Shown here piece after piece: positions 4,485-49,961 of a DNA stretch of 57,519 nucleotides. This DNA comes from a virus. A model generated the notes under the pieces. It searched no databases. It had not been told where the DNA came from and saw only the letters and a list, made by a program, of their open reading frames with translations. Numbering within the stretch: the stretch's first letter is position 1; the number at the start of each line of letters is the position of its first letter. The translations under genes and the position numbers were made by a program. The stretch is taken from IMG/VR virus record IMGVR_UViG_3300028831_000449, positions 1 to 57,519 of that record. One strand, written 5' to 3'.

Positions 4485-5141
4485 GACGCCCCGCGCCTCG
4501 AACTGTTTTAAGATCGCGGCTACGCCGGCCTGCTTATCGACTGCCAGAGGATCGAACCGTCCGTCAGAAACGTACTTGCCGCGCAAATATGCGGTGGTCA
4601 TACTCCATGCATAGGGTGACGGCAGTCCACGTTTGGTATAGCCCAGACCGTTGAACCCGACGCAGTTCCACAACACTGCGCCAATCTCGCTCCAGTTTTT
4701 CGTGTCGAGGTGATCCAGTTCGGGTGAGTAATACGAATCTTCCGCACTCTCTAGGAAGGTGTACGGCGGGTTCTTACCGGGTATGCGTCCCTTCGGAACG
4801 TGTATACTGCGGTGATTGAGTGGATCGCCTTGCGCGGGCGATTTCGTCATATCGTTGTCTGCCTCGCGGTAGAGCAAAGCAAAGACGACGCGTGCCGGCA
4901 CACCGTTGCGACGCATGTGTTCAATCGTTTGGTAGACAGATTGCGTGCGTTGATAGCGTGCGACCAACTTGTCTAGGTGTGGAATCGCCGCTTTGTCGAT
5001 CTTCGCTGTTTGCCATCGCGCACGTTCTGCATCTGCGCCACTTGAATGTTCGACGCTGACCGGGCGCGAAGGCTGCGCCGTTGGCGTAGTGGCTTTGCTG
5101 CACGCCGTTAGCGCCAGCAACAGGATCAGGAATCGCCGCAC
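4479..5141 (-). CDS. lipoprotein endolysin with lysozyme-like fold
   Basis: The 220-residue protein starts with a lipoprotein signal (MRRFLILLLALTACS, lipobox LTAC) and continues into a phage lysozyme-like domain at residues 60-220. Visible features of this family are ALLYREAD (the Glu is the likely catalytic acid), QGDPL, HVPKGRIPG, WSEIGAVLWNCVGFNGLGY, and GKYVSDGRFDP-AVDKQAG at the end. It should cleave peptidoglycan glycan strands. The lipidated start would export it and anchor it on the far side of the inner membrane, unlike holin-dependent soluble endolysins. The start is GTG 5141, placed right after the holin candidate stop, so it is coupled. The 3' end overlaps the promoter of the GIY-YIG gene. 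Confidence 0.8.
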   Translation of the reverse strand: MRRFLILLLALTACSKATTPTAQPSRPVSVEHSSGADAERARWQTAKIDKAAIPHLDKLVARYQRTQSVYQTIEHMRRNGVPARVVFALLYREADNDMTKSPAQGDPLNHRSIHVPKGRIPGKNPPYTFLESAEDSYYSPELDHLDTKNWSEIGAVLWNCVGFNGLGYTKRGLPSPYAWSMTTAYLRGKYVSDGRFDPLAVDKQAGVAAILKQFEARGVR

Positions 5142-5142
5142 G

Positions 5143-5472
5143 TCAGTGGATCAGCGCCGCTGCGATCATACACATGCCAATAAAAAGCACTGACATGACG
5201 ACCAGATTCGCGTAAATCCGTTCGCGTGGCCCGAGCTTCTTCCACTCATCGACAAAGAATCCGTTGTGTGCGTCTTGGTCGAGTGTATTTTTGAAAAAAA
5301 TGTGGCGAATGACAAGTGCCGCGATAGTTGCGCCTGAACCATAGACCGGCAGATAGACAAGCGAACCCGCTACGCCGAAGGCAAAGTCAGTCCACGAGAT
5401 TAGGAACGTGACGACAAATACTGTGAGCAGCGCCCAATAGCGTTGTAGGAAACTGATGGGATTGTTCTTCAT
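5143..5472 (-). CDS. holin candidate, multi-pass membrane protein
   Basis: The 109-residue protein has three predicted membrane segments: about 12-33 (WALLTVFVVTFLISW), 35-58 (VAGSLVYLPVYGSGATIAALVI) and 88-109 (ANLVVMSVLFIGMCMIAAAL), separated by a charged loop DEWKKLGPRERIY. Size, topology and position one base before the endolysin fit a class I holin. Its ATG overlaps the upstream stop by 4 bases (ATGA). No family signature proves the role, so holin is inferred from context. Confidence 0.6.
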   Translation of the reverse strand: MKNNPISFLQRYWALLTVFVVTFLISWTDFAFGVAGSLVYLPVYGSGATIAALVIRHIFFKNTLDQDAHNGFFVDEWKKLGPRERIYANLVVMSVLFIGMCMIAAALIH

Positions 5473-5795
5473 TTTGCCAAGCTCGACAACTCATTCACAT
5501 AAGCAGTCAGGATCATGTGGCAGAGGATTGGGATTTGTTTTTCGATCTCGGCGGCGTCAAACTTACCTGTTGCAACGAGCGCGGCTTTGAGGTTTTGGAC
5601 GCCGGCTTTGTGCTTTTCAAATCCGTCGAGTTTGCCATTGTCCTCCAAGTCTTTGATGATCCCGATGGCGAGCGGGTATCCCGCTTTCCAAATGCGGCTG
5701 CCCGAACTTGCCAGGAGCGCACGGAGTTGAGTGAGGACGTACGGGCTTACCCTTACAAAAGGGTAGAGTAGGAATGCTGCGATTGTTGCTGTCAT
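5469..5795 (-). CDS. hypothetical helical protein of the lysis operon
   Basis: This 108-residue protein is not recognised. The first 25 residues are hydrophobic (ATIAAFLLYPFVRV), then comes a helical, moderately charged body (LEDNGKLDGFEKHKAG) and a hydrophobic C-terminal helix (ILCHMILTAYVNEL). I chose ATG 5795, which shares ATGA with the stop of the 38-residue gene just upstream. The frame stays open to 6008, but that extension would cover two other coupled genes. It is likely a membrane-associated lysis or superinfection protein. Confidence 0.6.
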   Translation of the reverse strand: MTATIAAFLLYPFVRVSPYVLTQLRALLASSGSRIWKAGYPLAIGIIKDLEDNGKLDGFEKHKAGVQNLKAALVATGKFDAAEIEKQIPILCHMILTAYVNELSSLAK

Positions 5796-28915: not shown

Positions 28916-29245
28916 AAGAATCCAAGCGCCGTGAAACAATGCAGCGCCAGCCGCGAAGCGGAACCCCGCTGCCGACGCCGCTCGCCGAATAAAATCTGTC
29001 AGCAATTCGTCACCAGCTTGTTTTTCTCCTAGCAAAGTGACACGGTTCGAGCCCCGTAGGCTCCGGTTTCATTTTCCCCTCGTTTCACTCGTAAGGCACA
29101 GACTTTTCTTCCCTCGTAAAAGAGCGTTTTTCGCATTGTTTTTGCCTTGGGTTGTCAGCGAATCGTCATCAAAACCGCTGCTTTTTTGATGTAAAATTTC
29201 GCTTGCTTGTCGGACAACAATGGTGTAGGTGACATCCACCTTATC
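28916..29245. other. noncoding integration region
   Basis: No gene is seen in these 330 bases except the tRNA-like 3' end described separately. CATCAAAA (29167-29174) and TTTTGATG (29184-29191) form an 8-bp inverted repeat just before the integrase, a possible integrase arm site or promoter-proximal hairpin. TAAAAT at 29192-29197 could be a -10 for the integrase gene. Confidence 0.5.
29036..29062 (+). other. tRNA or tmRNA 3'-end-like segment, candidate attP core
   Basis: GGTTCGAGCCCCGTAGGCTC looks like the T-loop (TTCGAGC), the 3' half of the T-stem (CCCGT) and the acceptor 3' strand (AGGCTCC) of a tRNA or tmRNA gene. No 5' part of a tRNA is present, and the 5' T-stem has one base missing (ACGG rather than ACGGG), so identity stops within the arm. 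That is what an attP core carrying only the 3' end of its target gene looks like, and the tyrosine recombinase starts about 180 bases away. Confidence 0.6.
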
Positions 29246-30880
29246 ATGCTTACCCTCGATGAACGATTTTGGAAAAGCGTCGAAAAATCGACCGACTGCT
29301 GGATATGGACTGGCTGCTGCAATCAGGATGGCTACGGCAAAATTAAAGTAAACGGAACTCAAATATCTGCTCACCGGCTATCGTGGCAGATTCATTATCC
29401 CGAACAACCGATTGGTGATTTGTGGGTTCTGCACAAATGCGACAATCCGTCCTGCGTTCGGCCAGATCATCTCTTCCTTGGCACTCCGCATGACAATTGT
29501 CTCGATGCGATGGTGAAAGACAGACACTCCAAAATTCGCGACGAATTTACAAACTTACCATTATCGGATTTAGAAAAACAGCGGCTACGAAAAAAGCGCG
29601 ATAACAAATGTTTGAAGTGCCAAAACCCGCGTTTACCACATTCAGATTACTGCCAAACACACGCATTAAAACGTGATCTCCGCCCACGGCGCTTCGTCAC
29701 CCTTAATTCATACAAGCGAAGCGACAACGGCAAAATGGCGTGGGTCGTGAAGTGGAGTCCGCAACGAGGCGACCCCCGCCGAAGAACTTTTACCAACGAA
29801 GCAGACGCAGTACGCGAAGCAGACCACATTGAGCGCCTATTTCGAAACGGAATGCGGGTCGTGGGCAACCTGTCCATTCAGGAACTCGCGGGTGTCGCGC
29901 TCATGCTCGCGCAAATCCCGAATGTGCCGCCGCATGAAGTGATCCAGTACTATTTGCAGGCGCACGGGCTCAACGGTCACTCCGCCAACAGCGTGCCGCT
30001 CGAATCAGCGGCGGCGCAATACATCGCGCTGCGCGACAATCCCGATGAGTTTTCGCATCGCCAGTTCACCAGCGTCCGCCAGCACCTCAACCGGCTGGCC
30101 CGACATTTTCCAGGGCGAATGCTCAACACCATCCGGGTGGAGGAACTCAACGATTACGTGCAGGAGGAGATCGGCGGCGCTCCCAAGACGCGCGCCAACC
30201 ACGTCATCGACATACGGGCTTTCGGACGGTGGTGTCGGTCGGAGAAGAAGTGGTTGCCTCGACTCGTGCCGACCGCGTTTGAGGAAACGAGAATGCCGCG
30301 GGTCAAAGCGAGCAACAAGGAAATTTACACACCAGAAGAAATGACGCACCTGCTCGTATTCACTCCCACTCACACGCTCGGGTTTATGACGACGGGCGCG
30401 TTTGGAGGGATGCGCGCGGCAGAGCGCCTACGGCTCACAGGCGAGCATTGGCAGTCCGACAACGAACAGATCGCCGCCGACCGCGACATCACCAAGACCG
30501 CCCGCCGCCGCATCATCGGCTCGCTTCCAAACCTTGCCGCCTGGATGCGGATCATCGAAACCGAGAAGGACGAATACATCGTCCGGCGACGCAAACCGTA
30601 TGAGCAGGTCGCAAAAATCTGCAAAGCGGCGGGGGTAAAATGGAAGTTCAATGCGCTGCGCACCAGTTTCGCATCGTATCACCTCCAAAAATTCCGTAAC
30701 GGCGCGCTCACCGCCGCGCTCGACGGCCATTCCGAAGATCAATTGGAAACCGATTACAAGAGTTTGACCGGCGTAAACGACCGCACGGCGGAAGAGTGGT
30801 TCGCGATAACGCCGGAGAGTGTGATTGCGTATGCTGCGAAGCATGGACTGCCCGAGCCTGAATGGGCGAACAAAATATGA
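29246..30880 (+). CDS. tyrosine recombinase (integrase) fused to an N-terminal HNH domain
   Basis: The 544-residue product from ATG 29246 has two parts. Residues 1-95 are an HNH_3 nuclease: CWIWTGCCNQDGYG, then AHRLSWQIH, VLHKCDNPSCVRPDHLFLGT, followed by a Cys/His knuckle (CLKCQNP, YCQTH). Residues 150-540 are a tyrosine recombinase: an AP2-like arm region (WVVKWSPQRGD), a SAM-like core-binding domain, then catalytic Arg in GAFGGMRAAERL (about 389), NALRTSF (Asn for the first His, Arg about 471), GHSED (about 494) and Tyr in DYKSL (about 503). It should integrate the phage at the tRNA-like site. A longer frame starts at 29207. The HNH half is unusual and may be a captured homing nuclease. 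Confidence 0.85.
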   Translation: MLTLDERFWKSVEKSTDCWIWTGCCNQDGYGKIKVNGTQISAHRLSWQIHYPEQPIGDLWVLHKCDNPSCVRPDHLFLGTPHDNCLDAMVKDRHSKIRDEFTNLPLSDLEKQRLRKKRDNKCLKCQNPRLPHSDYCQTHALKRDLRPRRFVTLNSYKRSDNGKMAWVVKWSPQRGDPRRRTFTNEADAVREADHIERLFRNGMRVVGNLSIQELAGVALMLAQIPNVPPHEVIQYYLQAHGLNGHSANSVPLESAAAQYIALRDNPDEFSHRQFTSVRQHLNRLARHFPGRMLNTIRVEELNDYVQEEIGGAPKTRANHVIDIRAFGRWCRSEKKWLPRLVPTAFEETRMPRVKASNKEIYTPEEMTHLLVFTPTHTLGFMTTGAFGGMRAAERLRLTGEHWQSDNEQIAADRDITKTARRRIIGSLPNLAAWMRIIETEKDEYIVRRRKPYEQVAKICKAAGVKWKFNALRTSFASYHLQKFRNGALTAALDGHSEDQLETDYKSLTGVNDRTAEEWFAITPESVIAYAAKHGLPEPEWANKI

Positions 30881-40665: not shown

Positions 40666-43269
40666 CTAACCGCCACACGAACCGCTCTTCGTAATCTCAC
40701 AAACATCTGTGCCTTCCACGAATACTTCGCCGACATGCTTCACCGCCGTTTGGTGCCGGACAGGGGTAAGCGGTTGTCCTCCACGCGCGCCGTCGGGGTA
40801 ACAAGTGATTCCGCGCAGTTTGGGCAAGTGTTTTATCAACATCTTGCCAAACGGTCGCACCCCTTGCTCATTGTTGTGCTCGCTTCCCCAGGCCGGCAGA
40901 TTGATAGTGGAACTGATCGCGTGATCTACCCAGCCTTGAAGCCACACTTGGAACGCAACACGCCGCTCGACGTTCTCGGCCAAACTGTAGGCGTCTTCAA
41001 TTGTCTCAGGATCAACGCCATTATCAATCAAGCGTTGTGCCGTAGGATCGACAACATATTGGTAGTGCGTGACATTGCCTTTGAGGTACCGACGCTTGTA
41101 AGCTACACAGAAGATAGGTTCGGTGCCGGTAGTCGTCTCAGCGACAATGCCGATAGTGCCGGTAGGAGCGATAGCACGCGTCTTTTTCGGGCGACTGATC
41201 TCCCATTCATCAGCCTGTTTGCGCGCGATGTCGGTCGAGGTCGCATAGATGTCGAGATACTTCGCCAGATCGTCATCTGCGCCGTAACGCTTGCCTTTAA
41301 GTAACAACCACTCGTGCAGACCCATTAACCCGAGCCCAAGCCGGCGGTTCTTTGTGCGAATCGAATCGACCTTGGGATAAGGTACGTCGCTATAGACCGT
41401 GCCGGCGAGCAAGAACTTGGTAGCAAGATCGACAATCCTCTCCATCTCTTCCAACGACTCGATCCGCGCCATGTTAATTGAGCCGAGGTTGCAAATGTCG
41501 GAATCGTCGCGCGATGTAAGCTCAGTGCATTGTCCAGTAACAATTCCATTAAAGCAGCCAAGATGCCGCTTGGGTTCGTTAAAGCAGTAAACGTCTTCAG
41601 CGACACCCGCGTTTTCGATAGATACAACTCGCACAAACTGTGTTGCGTCGCGCTGCGGCGTGTAACCTGTAAAATCTAAACGTGAGCAACGCATGCCAAG
41701 TTCGGTAAGTTGCTGCATCTGAACCGCGCCAATCAACAATCGCCATGATCGATTGCAGAAATAATCCTTTTTCCCGCCCCGCCCGTCAGGCATCGGGCGA
41801 TAGCCTGCAACGTTACCGTCTGTAATCTTGGACTGCACACCGAGGGTGGATAAAAGTTTCTGCACGTCTTGCAAAAACAAAAAGTTAATCGAGCCAATTT
41901 GTGCGCCACCCTCCTTCAATTCCGTCCCGTCTCCATCAAGAAGCCCTGCCAACCATTCAAGCCGCGATGAGACATCCCACTCAAATGGCACAAACGACTT
42001 CGGCGCGGTCTTGAACGCCAATCCCACATTAACCTTCACAGTCGTTCCTACCCCATATGGCTTACTGACGGAACGAGAAGAAAGTCTGTCAACGCACGGA
42101 AATTTTGGTTCGTAAACGTCAACGTGCGAATGCCCATCCATACCATCAGCAGACACAAATCCTTGAGTGTAGGCATGTAGGTTACTGACACCTCCGGCCA
42201 AAATAGGAAACTCGTGTTTGGCTAGCGTGTCACCACACTTCAAATCGCGCGCCGATGCACGCTCCGTGCGTCCCGTGTAGCCAATCGCTAACTCCCATTC
42301 GTGATAGTGTGTGCATACCAACGACCTGCCATCAGATAATGTGACACGCAACATTGGCTCTTCGTGTCCAGTGATTTTCGGTGTCACGATTGACCATTCG
42401 AAACCATTCCAAACATCAACATCTCGTCCAACGACTGAGTCTATTCGTTGGTAACCTTCGCGTGTTAGAATTTCCGTGTCACCAGTGACACAGGCGTTGC
42501 GCAGGGTCTCACCCGCGTTCACGCCGACATCAACACTGAAGCCTGGCTCGGCAGTTTTAAGCATCTGCCGCACAACCGCCCAGTAGACCGTCTGGGCTAA
42601 CGCGTGATCGCGGTTCTTTTCATTGTGAAATGCTTTGAAAAAATCGTCGTCGAGCAGCACCGAGATATTGGTGCCGTCCATTGTCGCGGGAAAATTAAAG
42701 TCCTTCTCTTTAAGCGCGCGCACCTCTGGCGACCAGTTCTTCATCTGCACGAACTCGACGCAATCGGGGTGGTTCCAACGCAGTCCGGCCCATATCGCCG
42801 AGCGCCTGCTTCCTCCCTGCATAATGCCGCGGCCAGCTTCGTTCACCATTTGCATCACCGCAGTCGGCCCGGTCGCTTGTCCGCCGGTCTTACGAATTGT
42901 TTTACCCTTGGCGCGAATCTCGGAATAATCGACACCGATCCCCGCGCCAGTCATAAGCGACATAGTGATCTTGTGCATCAAGTCTGCCCAACCCTCGCGA
43001 CTGTCTTCGGCGCGGAGCATGAGACAGTTCTGCACTTGATGGAAAGGTCGCCCGGTAGCGTAAAGGTATCTGCCACCTGGCATAAATTTGCGTTGCGCTA
43101 TTGCCTGTTCAACCTCACGCACAAGCGCCTTTGGCGCGTGAACGGCGTGCATGACATGGTGCGCAACACGATGCGCGACCTGTTCCCATGTCTCCTTTTC
43201 GCCGTCAATCTCATGGGCATACTTCTGCTCCATGATGGCTTTGGCGAATGGGCTAAATTTGTCGGTCAT
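40666..43269 (-). CDS. ribonucleotide reductase (cobalamin-type) with intein
   Basis: The 867-residue precursor contains a reductase of about 546 residues interrupted by an intein at 260-580. Extein features are FMPGGRYLYATGRP (about 63), HQVQNCLMLRAEDSREGW (redox Cys), MTGAGIGVDYS, GRGIMQGGSRRSAIW, then NA joined to CTELTSRDDSD-CNLGS (active site Asn, Cys, Glu), APTGTIGIVAETTTG and a C-terminal CEITKSGSCGG with the redox Cys pair. This pattern fits adenosylcobalamin-dependent class II enzymes. It makes deoxynucleotides for phage replication. The start overlaps the zinc-ribbon frame by ATGA. Palindrome-like copies inside are probably coding coincidences. Confidence 0.88.
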   Translation of the reverse strand: MTDKFSPFAKAIMEQKYAHEIDGEKETWEQVAHRVAHHVMHAVHAPKALVREVEQAIAQRKFMPGGRYLYATGRPFHQVQNCLMLRAEDSREGWADLMHKITMSLMTGAGIGVDYSEIRAKGKTIRKTGGQATGPTAVMQMVNEAGRGIMQGGSRRSAIWAGLRWNHPDCVEFVQMKNWSPEVRALKEKDFNFPATMDGTNISVLLDDDFFKAFHNEKNRDHALAQTVYWAVVRQMLKTAEPGFSVDVGVNAGETLRNACVTGDTEILTREGYQRIDSVVGRDVDVWNGFEWSIVTPKITGHEEPMLRVTLSDGRSLVCTHYHEWELAIGYTGRTERASARDLKCGDTLAKHEFPILAGGVSNLHAYTQGFVSADGMDGHSHVDVYEPKFPCVDRLSSRSVSKPYGVGTTVKVNVGLAFKTAPKSFVPFEWDVSSRLEWLAGLLDGDGTELKEGGAQIGSINFLFLQDVQKLLSTLGVQSKITDGNVAGYRPMPDGRGGKKDYFCNRSWRLLIGAVQMQQLTELGMRCSRLDFTGYTPQRDATQFVRVVSIENAGVAEDVYCFNEPKRHLGCFNGIVTGQCTELTSRDDSDICNLGSINMARIESLEEMERIVDLATKFLLAGTVYSDVPYPKVDSIRTKNRRLGLGLMGLHEWLLLKGKRYGADDDLAKYLDIYATSTDIARKQADEWEISRPKKTRAIAPTGTIGIVAETTTGTEPIFCVAYKRRYLKGNVTHYQYVVDPTAQRLIDNGVDPETIEDAYSLAENVERRVAFQVWLQGWVDHAISSTINLPAWGSEHNNEQGVRPFGKMLIKHLPKLRGITCYPDGARGGQPLTPVRHQTAVKHVGEVFVEGTDVCEITKSGSCGG
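41530..42492 (-). mobile_element. LAGLIDADG-containing intein in the reductase
   Basis: The 321-residue intein begins CVTGDTEIL, has the block B His in VCTHYHEW, one clear homing-endonuclease block LEWLAGLLDGDGTE near the middle, and ends VYCFNEPKRHLGCFNGIVTGQ followed by Cys+1. The last residue is Gln instead of Asn, and the penultimate residue is Gly instead of His, a variant known in some reductase inteins. The Cys+1 is the catalytic thiyl-radical cysteine, so the enzyme cannot work unless splicing is exact. Confidence 0.88.
43064..43078. repeat. palindrome-like sequence inside the reductase gene
   Basis: AGGT-ATCTGCC-ACCT encodes the conserved GGRYL of the reductase. It fits the consensus well, but since the peptide is conserved in the family it may be coincidence. 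Confidence 0.4.
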
Positions 43270-43442
43270 TGCATCTTTGTCTGCGGCGCGTCAACGATGA
43301 TTCCAATCTTGTTCGTTCCTATTTTCTTACCGCATTAACAGCGTTGATTTGGCTTTGGGAGACCACCATCGAAAATGTGCCACTGCGCATTGCATTTCGG
43401 CGTGCCTGTCTTCGGCGTTTCAGCTTTCAGTTGCGCGCTCAC
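43266..43442 (-). pseudogene. zinc-ribbon gene interrupted by one in-frame TAA
   Basis: The frame starts at GTG 43442 with a GTGA overlap to the MazG-like stop and ends at TGA 43268-43266 with an ATGA overlap to the reductase start. Between them is a single TAA at 43337-43335. Read through, it would be 58 residues: CNAQWHIFDGGLPKPNQRC, stop, CGKKIGTNKIG. The Cys-x-Cys that would close the zinc site straddles the stop. The perfect coupling at both ends says this was one gene. It is either a nonsense mutant, a sequencing error, or a recoded stop. Confidence 0.65.
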
Positions 43443-43756
43443 CTCTCATCCCCCGACCCGGTGAGCTTCCCTCGCCCTTGCCGCGAGCGGAGCTTGTCGA
43501 TGTTGCGCTGCGCGATCTCACTCAAGTCCATTTGTAGCATCGTGGAAAGGCCGGCGAGGTACCACAGGCAGTCGCCTAACTCAGCGGCAATCTCGTCATG
43601 CAATGACTGTGAGCGTTCGTCGCCGCGGAAGTACTTCTTGAGTTTGCCTGCAACTTCGCCCGACTCGTTAGCCACCCCTAGCACCATGTACGTTATGGAT
43701 TTAGCTTTCGGCAACGCGAACTCAAATGCGGTTTTTTGGTATTCGTTAAATGTCAT
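43439..43756 (-). CDS. MazG-like NTP pyrophosphohydrolase
   Basis: The 105-residue protein matches the MazG-like all-alpha NTP pyrophosphatase pattern: YMVLGVANESGEVAGKLKKYFRGDE (metal-binding ESGE), then EIAAELGDCLWYLAGLSTML (ELGD), and IAQRNIDKLRSRQGRGKL with final GDER. It would hydrolyse nucleoside triphosphates, for instance clearing host alarmones or non-canonical dNTPs. It lies beside the reductase, consistent with nucleotide-pool control. Confidence 0.85.
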   Translation of the reverse strand: MTFNEYQKTAFEFALPKAKSITYMVLGVANESGEVAGKLKKYFRGDERSQSLHDEIAAELGDCLWYLAGLSTMLQMDLSEIAQRNIDKLRSRQGRGKLTGSGDER

Positions 43757-47389: not shown

Positions 47390-49885
47390 TTACTTGCGGA
47401 TTGGCTTCAAATAGCGGACATCGCCCGCCTGGTTGAAAATATCTCCTTCGATAAGCAGGTCTTGCACACGCTGAACAGCCTTGGCTTTCTGACCGCGTTT
47501 ACTAACAGCTTTGACCAAATCGTCCACGGCAGACGCTTTGATGTCGCAGTATTCCACAAAGTCATCCGCCTTTAATTCGGGTGCGACTTCCGTTTTAATA
47601 ACGTCGAAAGCCGCCTTCGCCGAAACAACCGAGCGGCGACCACGTTTTTCGGCAATTTCGTAGCCGGGTATCTGCGTTCCAGATTCGTGCATATATAAAG
47701 CCGCACTTTTCCATCCGCTCGCTGCTTTAGTTACCGCTGGCGCAATCTGCATCAACGTGGCAAAAGCCTCGGGATCGGTAATCTCGCTGCCATGCAGCGA
47801 TCCTTCAGGTAAGTCCAGCTCCGGTGAATAGCGCCGCGCAATCTCTAGCCCAAGATTCGCGAGCTTCGTGCATTTACCAGCGAAGCCGCAGTACTGGCAC
47901 TGCGCGGAGACCGTGTAATCTTCCGGTCGATTTGCTCGTGCTCTCGCAATTATCGCCGCAACTTGGCCGGAGAGACGGTCGTAGTCCTTGCTGCGGGTGA
48001 AGGTCTCAATGTCGATCTCGTCTCGCAGCGGATGAACAGCATGAATACGAACCGTTTCGACCGGAAACTTATCCCACGTTCCGATAGCATAACAGTGAAA
48101 CTGCGGCGCATCGGCAGGGTAAAAATTATAGGCGAACTTCCAATCTATGATGTCCGCAACCAGACCGTCGTGAGCGAGAACATCTGTGTATCCAAACTGG
48201 TCGAAATAATCGAGTCGGATTTCTTGAAATACCGACGGCGTTACTCGATAAGTCGCTAAGACTTGTCGCTTGTATTCAACGCACTTCTCCACCGCTGCCT
48301 TGAGAATTGCGTCGTGCGCGATAAGCGACAGGTCTTCGGTCTCAACCGCCTTATGCGCGAGCGTGCCGCGATCCGCGAACGTGCGGTCGCCGTCGGGGTC
48401 TGAGAAGTAGCCGGGGCAAATCGCTTTGGATTTGAGCACACTCGGGGAAAGCGGGGCGTGCTTACGTTCGGTTGTCGGTTCGGGGGAAGACAAGACAGCA
48501 GTATACGAGGTATCTGCAACCTCGCAAGCCAAATCAGACTTATTTGTGAATTTAGGTTGACAAGTCGATTTTACCGCTTCTGTTGTTGCTCTTCCGCCTG
48601 CCAACTCCTCCAGCGGGTCTAAATCCCCATCTTGAAGCAGCGCAATATTCGCGAGTTTCGCCTGCACGCGCTTGCACACCTTCTCTTCGTACGTGCCGGC
48701 GGCAAACACAATCTTCTGCACAGCCTTACTCTTTGCACCCGCGCGATGGATGCGTCCAAGCGCCTGCTTTAAGTCAACGGCGTGATCGGTTGGACAGATA
48801 AGCGACACCCGCGGATAGCGGCCGTGAAGATCATGCAAACTGATCCCAACCCCGCCGGCTTGCACGTTGACGATGATAGCGCGCGACTTATCGGCTTGGA
48901 AATCGGCAATCGCTTTCTGCCTTTCGGCGTCATTCTGCCCGCCGTAAATTCCGTCGCACTTTAGCTTGGTACGCAGCTTCTCCAGCGTTTCACGGAACGA
49001 TGTGAACACGACGACACTGTTTCCTTCGGCAATTAGATCGGTCGCCATGCTTGCCAGCCCATCAGCCTTTAACACTTCGGCTTTCTGCCGCGCCTGCATG
49101 ATAAGAACGCCGCCTTGAACGGATTCACCTGCGAGAATGCGGCGGTTCTTCTCTTCTGCCGCAGCGTCGTAGGCGGCATTGACCTGGGCTTCGTTGCCAA
49201 AGGCATAGACCTCGGCATTCACGCTGTTGTCAGGGAAAGCATCGCCAAGATCGGCAATGCGAATGCGGCTGCCGAACTTGGGGAAAATCTGTTCGTGCAG
49301 AGACACGAGAACCTTGGCAGCAGATTTTCGCTTGAACTCGATCCCGCCGAAGGCTCCGCGCCAGCATCCGTTACGCAAACACCATTTATAGAAGTTCGTC
49401 CAAGTGTGCAAGCCTAACAAGTAACCGACGGCGCGCATCTCGGTCGGGTCTTGGGCGAGTGTGGCACTCAAGAGAAGACAGCGGAACGGTTTGGCTGCGG
49501 CGAGAATGCGCGCGTTTTGACTCGTTGGACTTTTGCAGCGGTGAACTTCGTCGAAAATGACTAGACAGCCGGGATTTAGTGACCACTCCCACTTCTTCAC
49601 ATTAAATCGGCCCCAACTCGTATTGCCCATGCGCAACAGTTCGTAATTCACAACCGCCGCCCTCGCGTTATTGCCTAACGCCTGCTTCAGCACGTTTTCC
49701 CAAACAGGAATAACTGCCTTTGGGCAGACCACAAACACTTCACAGTCCAGTTGTTTAGCAATCCATGCCGCTTCGTAAGTTTTACCTGTGCCTGTGTCGC
49801 TCGCGCTAACCGCGACGCGGTTCTCCCGCAGCGACCGGAGCAGATTCTCGGCGCTTGGGACTTGATAGGGGTAGAGGGAAATCAC
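47390..49885 (-). CDS. fused SF2 helicase and Cas4/RecB-like nuclease
   Basis: The 831-residue protein joins two enzymes. Residues 1-430: SNF2-type SF2 helicase with VSASDTGTGKT (Walker A), VIFDEVHRCKS (DEVH), LLLSATLAQDP, VVVFTSFRETLEKL, VNVQAGGVGISLHDL and QALGRIHRAGAKS. Residues 470-740: a PDDEXK nuclease resembling DUF2800/Cas4 with RGTLAHKAVE, DIIDWKFAYNFYP (D-x-K), and a Cys cluster CQYCGFAGKC that may hold an Fe-S centre. A C-terminal helical domain follows. It probably processes DNA ends for recombination. The start is GTG 49885, 4 bases after a tiny membrane gene. The linker carries palindrome copy 15. Confidence 0.83.
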   Translation of the reverse strand: MISLYPYQVPSAENLLRSLRENRVAVSASDTGTGKTYEAAWIAKQLDCEVFVVCPKAVIPVWENVLKQALGNNARAAVVNYELLRMGNTSWGRFNVKKWEWSLNPGCLVIFDEVHRCKSPTSQNARILAAAKPFRCLLLSATLAQDPTEMRAVGYLLGLHTWTNFYKWCLRNGCWRGAFGGIEFKRKSAAKVLVSLHEQIFPKFGSRIRIADLGDAFPDNSVNAEVYAFGNEAQVNAAYDAAAEEKNRRILAGESVQGGVLIMQARQKAEVLKADGLASMATDLIAEGNSVVVFTSFRETLEKLRTKLKCDGIYGGQNDAERQKAIADFQADKSRAIIVNVQAGGVGISLHDLHGRYPRVSLICPTDHAVDLKQALGRIHRAGAKSKAVQKIVFAAGTYEEKVCKRVQAKLANIALLQDGDLDPLEELAGGRATTEAVKSTCQPKFTNKSDLACEVADTSYTAVLSSPEPTTERKHAPLSPSVLKSKAICPGYFSDPDGDRTFADRGTLAHKAVETEDLSLIAHDAILKAAVEKCVEYKRQVLATYRVTPSVFQEIRLDYFDQFGYTDVLAHDGLVADIIDWKFAYNFYPADAPQFHCYAIGTWDKFPVETVRIHAVHPLRDEIDIETFTRSKDYDRLSGQVAAIIARARANRPEDYTVSAQCQYCGFAGKCTKLANLGLEIARRYSPELDLPEGSLHGSEITDPEAFATLMQIAPAVTKAASGWKSAALYMHESGTQIPGYEIAEKRGRRSVVSAKAAFDVIKTEVAPELKADDFVEYCDIKASAVDDLVKAVSKRGQKAKAVQRVQDLLIEGDIFNQAGDVRYLKPIRK
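48508..48522. repeat. dispersed palindrome copy 15 within the helicase-nuclease linker
   Basis: CG-AGGT-ATCTGCA-ACCT-CG, with two more paired bases on each side than the consensus. It encodes EVADTS in the linker between the two enzyme domains and is not near a start codon. Confidence 0.55.
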
Positions 49886-49889
49886 TCCG

Positions 49890-49961
49890 TCAGTGACAAA
49901 AGACCAACAGATAAACCACCGCAAAGACGCACAAACCGGAAACAACGAGCCACTCTTTCAT
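49890..49961 (-). CDS. 23-residue single-span membrane peptide
   Basis: MKEWLVVSGLCVFAVVYLLV, then a short end. One membrane span fills almost all of it. It starts 7 bases after the stop of the Fn3-like gene and ends 4 bases before the GTG of the helicase-nuclease, so it is well placed as a translated leader. Low certainty because of its length. Confidence 0.4.
   Translation of the reverse strand: MKEWLVVSGLCVFAVVYLLVFCH

Follow-up and report, generated by a model that had tools for sequence, protein, structure and literature searches.

A small cysteine-rich gene between the MazG-like and ribonucleotide reductase genes of a phage, probably interrupted by an in-frame TAA codon

Analysis of a complete IMG/VR record from a virus of bacteria (57,519 bases, hereafter the window) points to one small gene, about 58 codons long, that is interrupted by an ordinary TAA codon, either as a real lesion or as an error in the consensus, an interpretation to which we assign a probability of roughly three in four. 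The gene would occupy the interval between MazG-like and ribonucleotide reductase (RNR) genes within a putative operon, and its product would probably be a small, Cys-rich, zinc-ribbon-like protein with a candidate zinc site. Codon use behind the stop, the motif with which the tail opens, and a match to a ribbon from another virus that continues past the stop are the features upon which this interpretation is built.

Organization of the locus

On the minus strand the gene order is MazG-like gene, split frame, and RNR gene (Table 1). Translation of the split frame (43442-43266) yields 35 codons, TAA, 22 codons and TGA; this arrangement and the overlap with each neighboring gene are read directly from the sequence. 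At its start, the GTG (43442) and the TGA of the MazG-like ORF (43756-43439) share 4 nt; at its end, the TGA at 43268-43266 overlaps the RNR ATG (43269) by the same length. Translation thereby bears out an earlier sequence-only reading, which had described a start and an end coupled to both neighbors and a TAA at 43337-43335 between them. The position of the RNR start is backed by the likeness of its first residues to those of relatives. The RNR gene itself (40666-43269) carries an intein in frame, with a LAGLIDADG domain.

Table 1. Features of the MazG-RNR interval, in window coordinates
Feature	Position	Strand	Evidence
MazG-like nucleotide pyrophosphohydrolase gene	43439..43756	minus	Pfam PF03819, E 6e-9; phrog_229, E 5e-31
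Split frame, first part, 35 codons (Cys17, WH.FDGG, Cys35)	43338..43442	minus	Translation; resembles L234 residues CGELWHFFDGGGPIENRMC
In-frame TAA, next base T	43335..43337	minus	Sequence and translation
Split frame, putative coding tail: 22 open codons (CGKKIGTNKIGIIVDAPQTKMQ), then a TGA that overlaps the RNR ATG	43266..43334	minus	Coding-like codon score; family-model gain
RNR gene, intein-bearing, next downstream	40666..43269	minus	PF02867, E 6.5e-49; LAGLIDADG_3, E 6e-6; weak Intein_splicing

Evidence for a probable coding tail

Openness of the tail is by itself weak evidence, since 22 open codons follow 1539 of the 3429 six-frame stops of the window (44.9%). Similarly, overlap of the tail's end with the RNR ATG would, by our own estimate, arise by chance about once in three, given that RNR begins with ATGA. 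The features that do exceed chance are codon use and the CGKK motif. The codon score of the tail, 3.64, is matched by 1.9% of 12,437 out-of-frame open windows, a rough figure as these windows overlap, and falls at the 65th percentile of 2,068 (likewise overlapping) coding windows, making it typical for genes of this record. Within the head, the first half scores well while the second half, at -1.52, lies below 94% of coding windows. The tail opens with CGKK; among the 1539 control tails, four begin with CG and a single one with CG followed by K, R or G.

Gene spacing and similarity to a protein family add to this picture. If no gene lay between MazG and RNR the two would be separated by 169 nt, a gap that the split gene would close, and tight junctions, at which neighbors lie no more than 15 nt apart or overlap by no more than 60, make up 21 of the 37 listed for the window, a list that takes in some uncertain ORFs. 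When the tail is added to the head, the score against the family model described below rises from 8.8 to 12.1 bits, a gain equalled by 23 of the 1539 control tails, or by 19 of them when L234, a relative also described below, is left out of the model. Taken together, codon use, the CGKK opening, and the L234 match past the stop suggest that the tail is a putative coding part of the same gene as the head. The proposal of one gene split by a stop thus gains support that falls short of proof.

Likely relationship to phage ribbon proteins

The Cys and His residues of the frame comprise Cys17, His22, Cys35 and, two codons further on and behind the TAA, another Cys. The earlier placement of Cys residues on either side of the stop therefore stands, and the accompanying zinc ribbon label is fair but weak. 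Pfam, PHROG and NCBIfam models gave no match to the read-through frame. An AlphaFold model of this frame (pLDDT 40.5) was set aside as having no evidential value.

One relative was found using a DNA pattern built from the head alone (C...WH.FDG), which retrieved 15 stretches in viral_contigs. Fourteen were dropped as short or stop-broken frames or as non-ribbon sequences (L231), and L234 (IMGVR_UViG_3300048929_000631) was kept. Its 230-aa ORF at 5030-5722 ends in the ribbon CGELWHFFDGGGPIENRMCFCHFCSKPI, and its match to the window extends beyond the stop-side end of the pattern, as G.P..N..C.C, up to the Cys behind the TAA. As the search pattern stopped at FDG, the shared G, P, N, C and C that follow it were not selected for. 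Common to both is C-x3-WH-x-FDGG-x-P-x2-N-x2-C-x-C, whereas the L234 ribbon is uninterrupted, is fused behind a domain with a weak MazG-like match, and carries C-x2-C as its knuckle together with one more upstream Cys, both of which the window lacks. The front domain of L234 strongly matches phrog_8593 and phrog_14118 and shows a weak MazG-like match (phrog_715, E 0.01), and the ORF also matches phrog_10312; in L234:5030-5722 a possible MazG-like domain is joined to a C-terminal ribbon.

Through L234 a family of phage ribbons was reached in which C, CG, GP-x-EN and C-x2-C are invariant. Ribbons of the form C-x-W...CG...GPxEN..FCPxCGK occur in Enterobacter phage Arya, Klebsiella phage SopranoGao, Pseudomonas phage LSL4 and Erwinia phage vB_EhrS_59. 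Like the window, these have Gly-Pro-x2-Asn ahead of the last Cys pair and, in several, CGK after it; unlike the window, they have C-x2-C rather than C-x-C, about three more residues from Asn to the last Cys, and an invariant CxW motif. In terms of the family alignment (A1), the Gly-(x)-Pro-x2-Asn that leads up to the last Cys pair is present in the window as DGGLPKPN, while the last knuckle, C-x2-C in A1 (invariant Cys 42 and 45), is C-stop-C in the window, and both the upstream CxW and the W before CG are absent from the 16 residues that precede Cys17.

Against a six-sequence model, the read-through frame ranks first among 1,201 window sequences, though at no better than E 0.008, a value owed in part to L234, which was picked by likeness, compared with E 0.088 for the head alone and E 17 for the tail alone. 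The frame, with X at the stop, was also compared with each relative against 1000 shuffles. L234 scored 71, a result biased by its selection for likeness; no shuffle equalled L241 (score 50) or L242 (score 45), both found through L234. Matches to L243 (38; 12 of 1000 shuffles as good), L240 (34; 11 of 1000) and L238 (29; 95 of 1000) were weak. The window frame is likely a distant or decayed cousin of the ribbon family. As the first Cys of the family is missing from it and C-stop-C stands in place of C-x2-C, it is not filed as a member.

Searches for closer relatives

Searches with the read-through protein found no relatives in viral_contigs, phages or genome_contigs. Its 37-aa core gave just seven matches in phages, at E 3-4, and the one that was fetched sat within a polymerase gene. 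The pattern W-H-x-F-D-G...C-x-C-G-K had no matches in viral_contigs or genome_contigs, and neither did a compact pattern of fixed spacing. A looser pattern returned 75 stretches, which on translation gave 28 matches to the motif, with no convincing small ribbon of this kind; L153, promising at first, was rejected for its overlap with a longer open frame. The neighboring genes led to 64 RNR loci (the stretch upstream of RNR being printed for 36) and 80 MazG loci, among which no relative of the split frame was seen, and the family model, run on 244 loci, gave a best E of 0.019 once ribbon seeds and the near twin L239 were put aside. Neither the window's DNA polymerase, used as a query, nor 10 kb of the window compared with phages returned a match (in the latter case, a near match). 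Taken together, the collections searched yielded no ortholog and no close relative.

Decoding at the TAA codon

The stop signal here is UAA-U, which is reported to be probably the strongest or most efficient bacterial terminator (PMC5289835), and is thus not the leaky context expected of readthrough. The 101-nt RNA around the stop (43355 to 43255) shows no stable fold, with 192 of 200 shuffles folding at least as well (z-score +1.56), and no tRNA gene, suppressor or otherwise, was found in the whole record. In addition, of 73 ORFs chosen greedily, a set that may include spurious ones, 29 terminate in TAA, polymerase and helicase among them, so that TAA serves as an ordinary terminator elsewhere in the record. 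Given the context, the lack of a stable fold or tRNA gene, and this ordinary use of TAA, ribosomes should stop at the codon and release a 35-residue stub that lacks the last Cys; such a stub would leave the metal site incomplete and would presumably be without function.

The Shine-Dalgarno match at the RNR start is weak, as it is at many starts of the phage, and an argument for coupling based on this signal was dropped because many starts are without one. Across the window, many gene starts show almost no Shine-Dalgarno match and a few a strong one; the host may rarely use that signal.

Weighing the alternatives

The main rival explanation, which we regard as unlikely though far from negligible, is that a 35-codon gene ends naturally at the TAA, leaving 66 nt of non-coding sequence before the RNR start, with CGKK and the open frame arising by chance. 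The frequency of open tails in the window fits such an ending, as do the failure of the tail alone to match the family, the absence of a known ortholog, and the differing Cys spacing of relatives. Codon use in the tail, its CGK start, and continuation of the L234 match beyond the stop argue against it, and a ribbon stopping there would presumably miss its last Cys. If instead a single gene is interrupted, as we favor, the TAA would be either a true nonsense lesion in the genome of the phage, which would tolerate it because it can dispense with the gene, or an error in the metagenome consensus. The latter, taken together with a minority strain variant that entered the consensus while the true gene is intact, is a sub-case counted within the preferred explanation and is a tentative possibility, somewhat better placed than a natural end: the record probably derives from metagenome assembly, and one codon is the sole defect noted. 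Against it, the nearby helicase, polymerase, RNR and methyltransferase genes are each single open frames, which argues that the consensus is generally good.

Programmed readthrough, yielding a short and a long protein, is improbable. Known cases resemble the window in combining an in-frame stop with a coding-like extension, and the position of the stop exactly between two Cys would suit such a mechanism; the window differs, however, in its strong terminator context, its lack of structure or a tRNA gene, and the absence of a known relative that keeps the stop. Slightly less credible still is a stop kept on purpose, whereby an amino acid inserted now and then at the UAA between two Cys would complete the metal-binding protein in a small fraction of its copies, and ribosomes that pass the stop would reach the ATGA overlap, couple translation to RNR and so set RNR levels. 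Least credible of all, to the point of being barely worth entertaining, is a reassigned code in this phage, with TAA read as an amino acid: it could call upon one in-frame TAA, and is opposed by the general use of TAA as a terminator and by the lack of a suppressor tRNA. The original argument against a change of code accordingly holds. Of the three causes first put forward, either mutation or sequence error fits best, while programmed readthrough has become unlikely.

Significance and additional observations

As it stands, the split frame is a small point of annotation, as gene callers would either miss the 58-codon frame or report 35 residues. Were relatives found to have kept the stop, a UAA readthrough switch would lie ahead of a phage RNR gene, and in that case alone would the finding be of larger import. 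The analysis also connects the split frame with ribbons from phages, including one that follows a possible MazG-like domain in a fused ORF.

Two further ORFs of the window appear to be composite. The ORF at 47390-49945 has a front half that matches a DNA helicase family and a back half that matches an exonuclease family (phrog_62, phrog_69). At 29207-30880, a 557-aa ORF seems to have an HNH-type front followed by a tyrosine-recombinase-like remainder, labels that were read off the translation rather than taken from a search.
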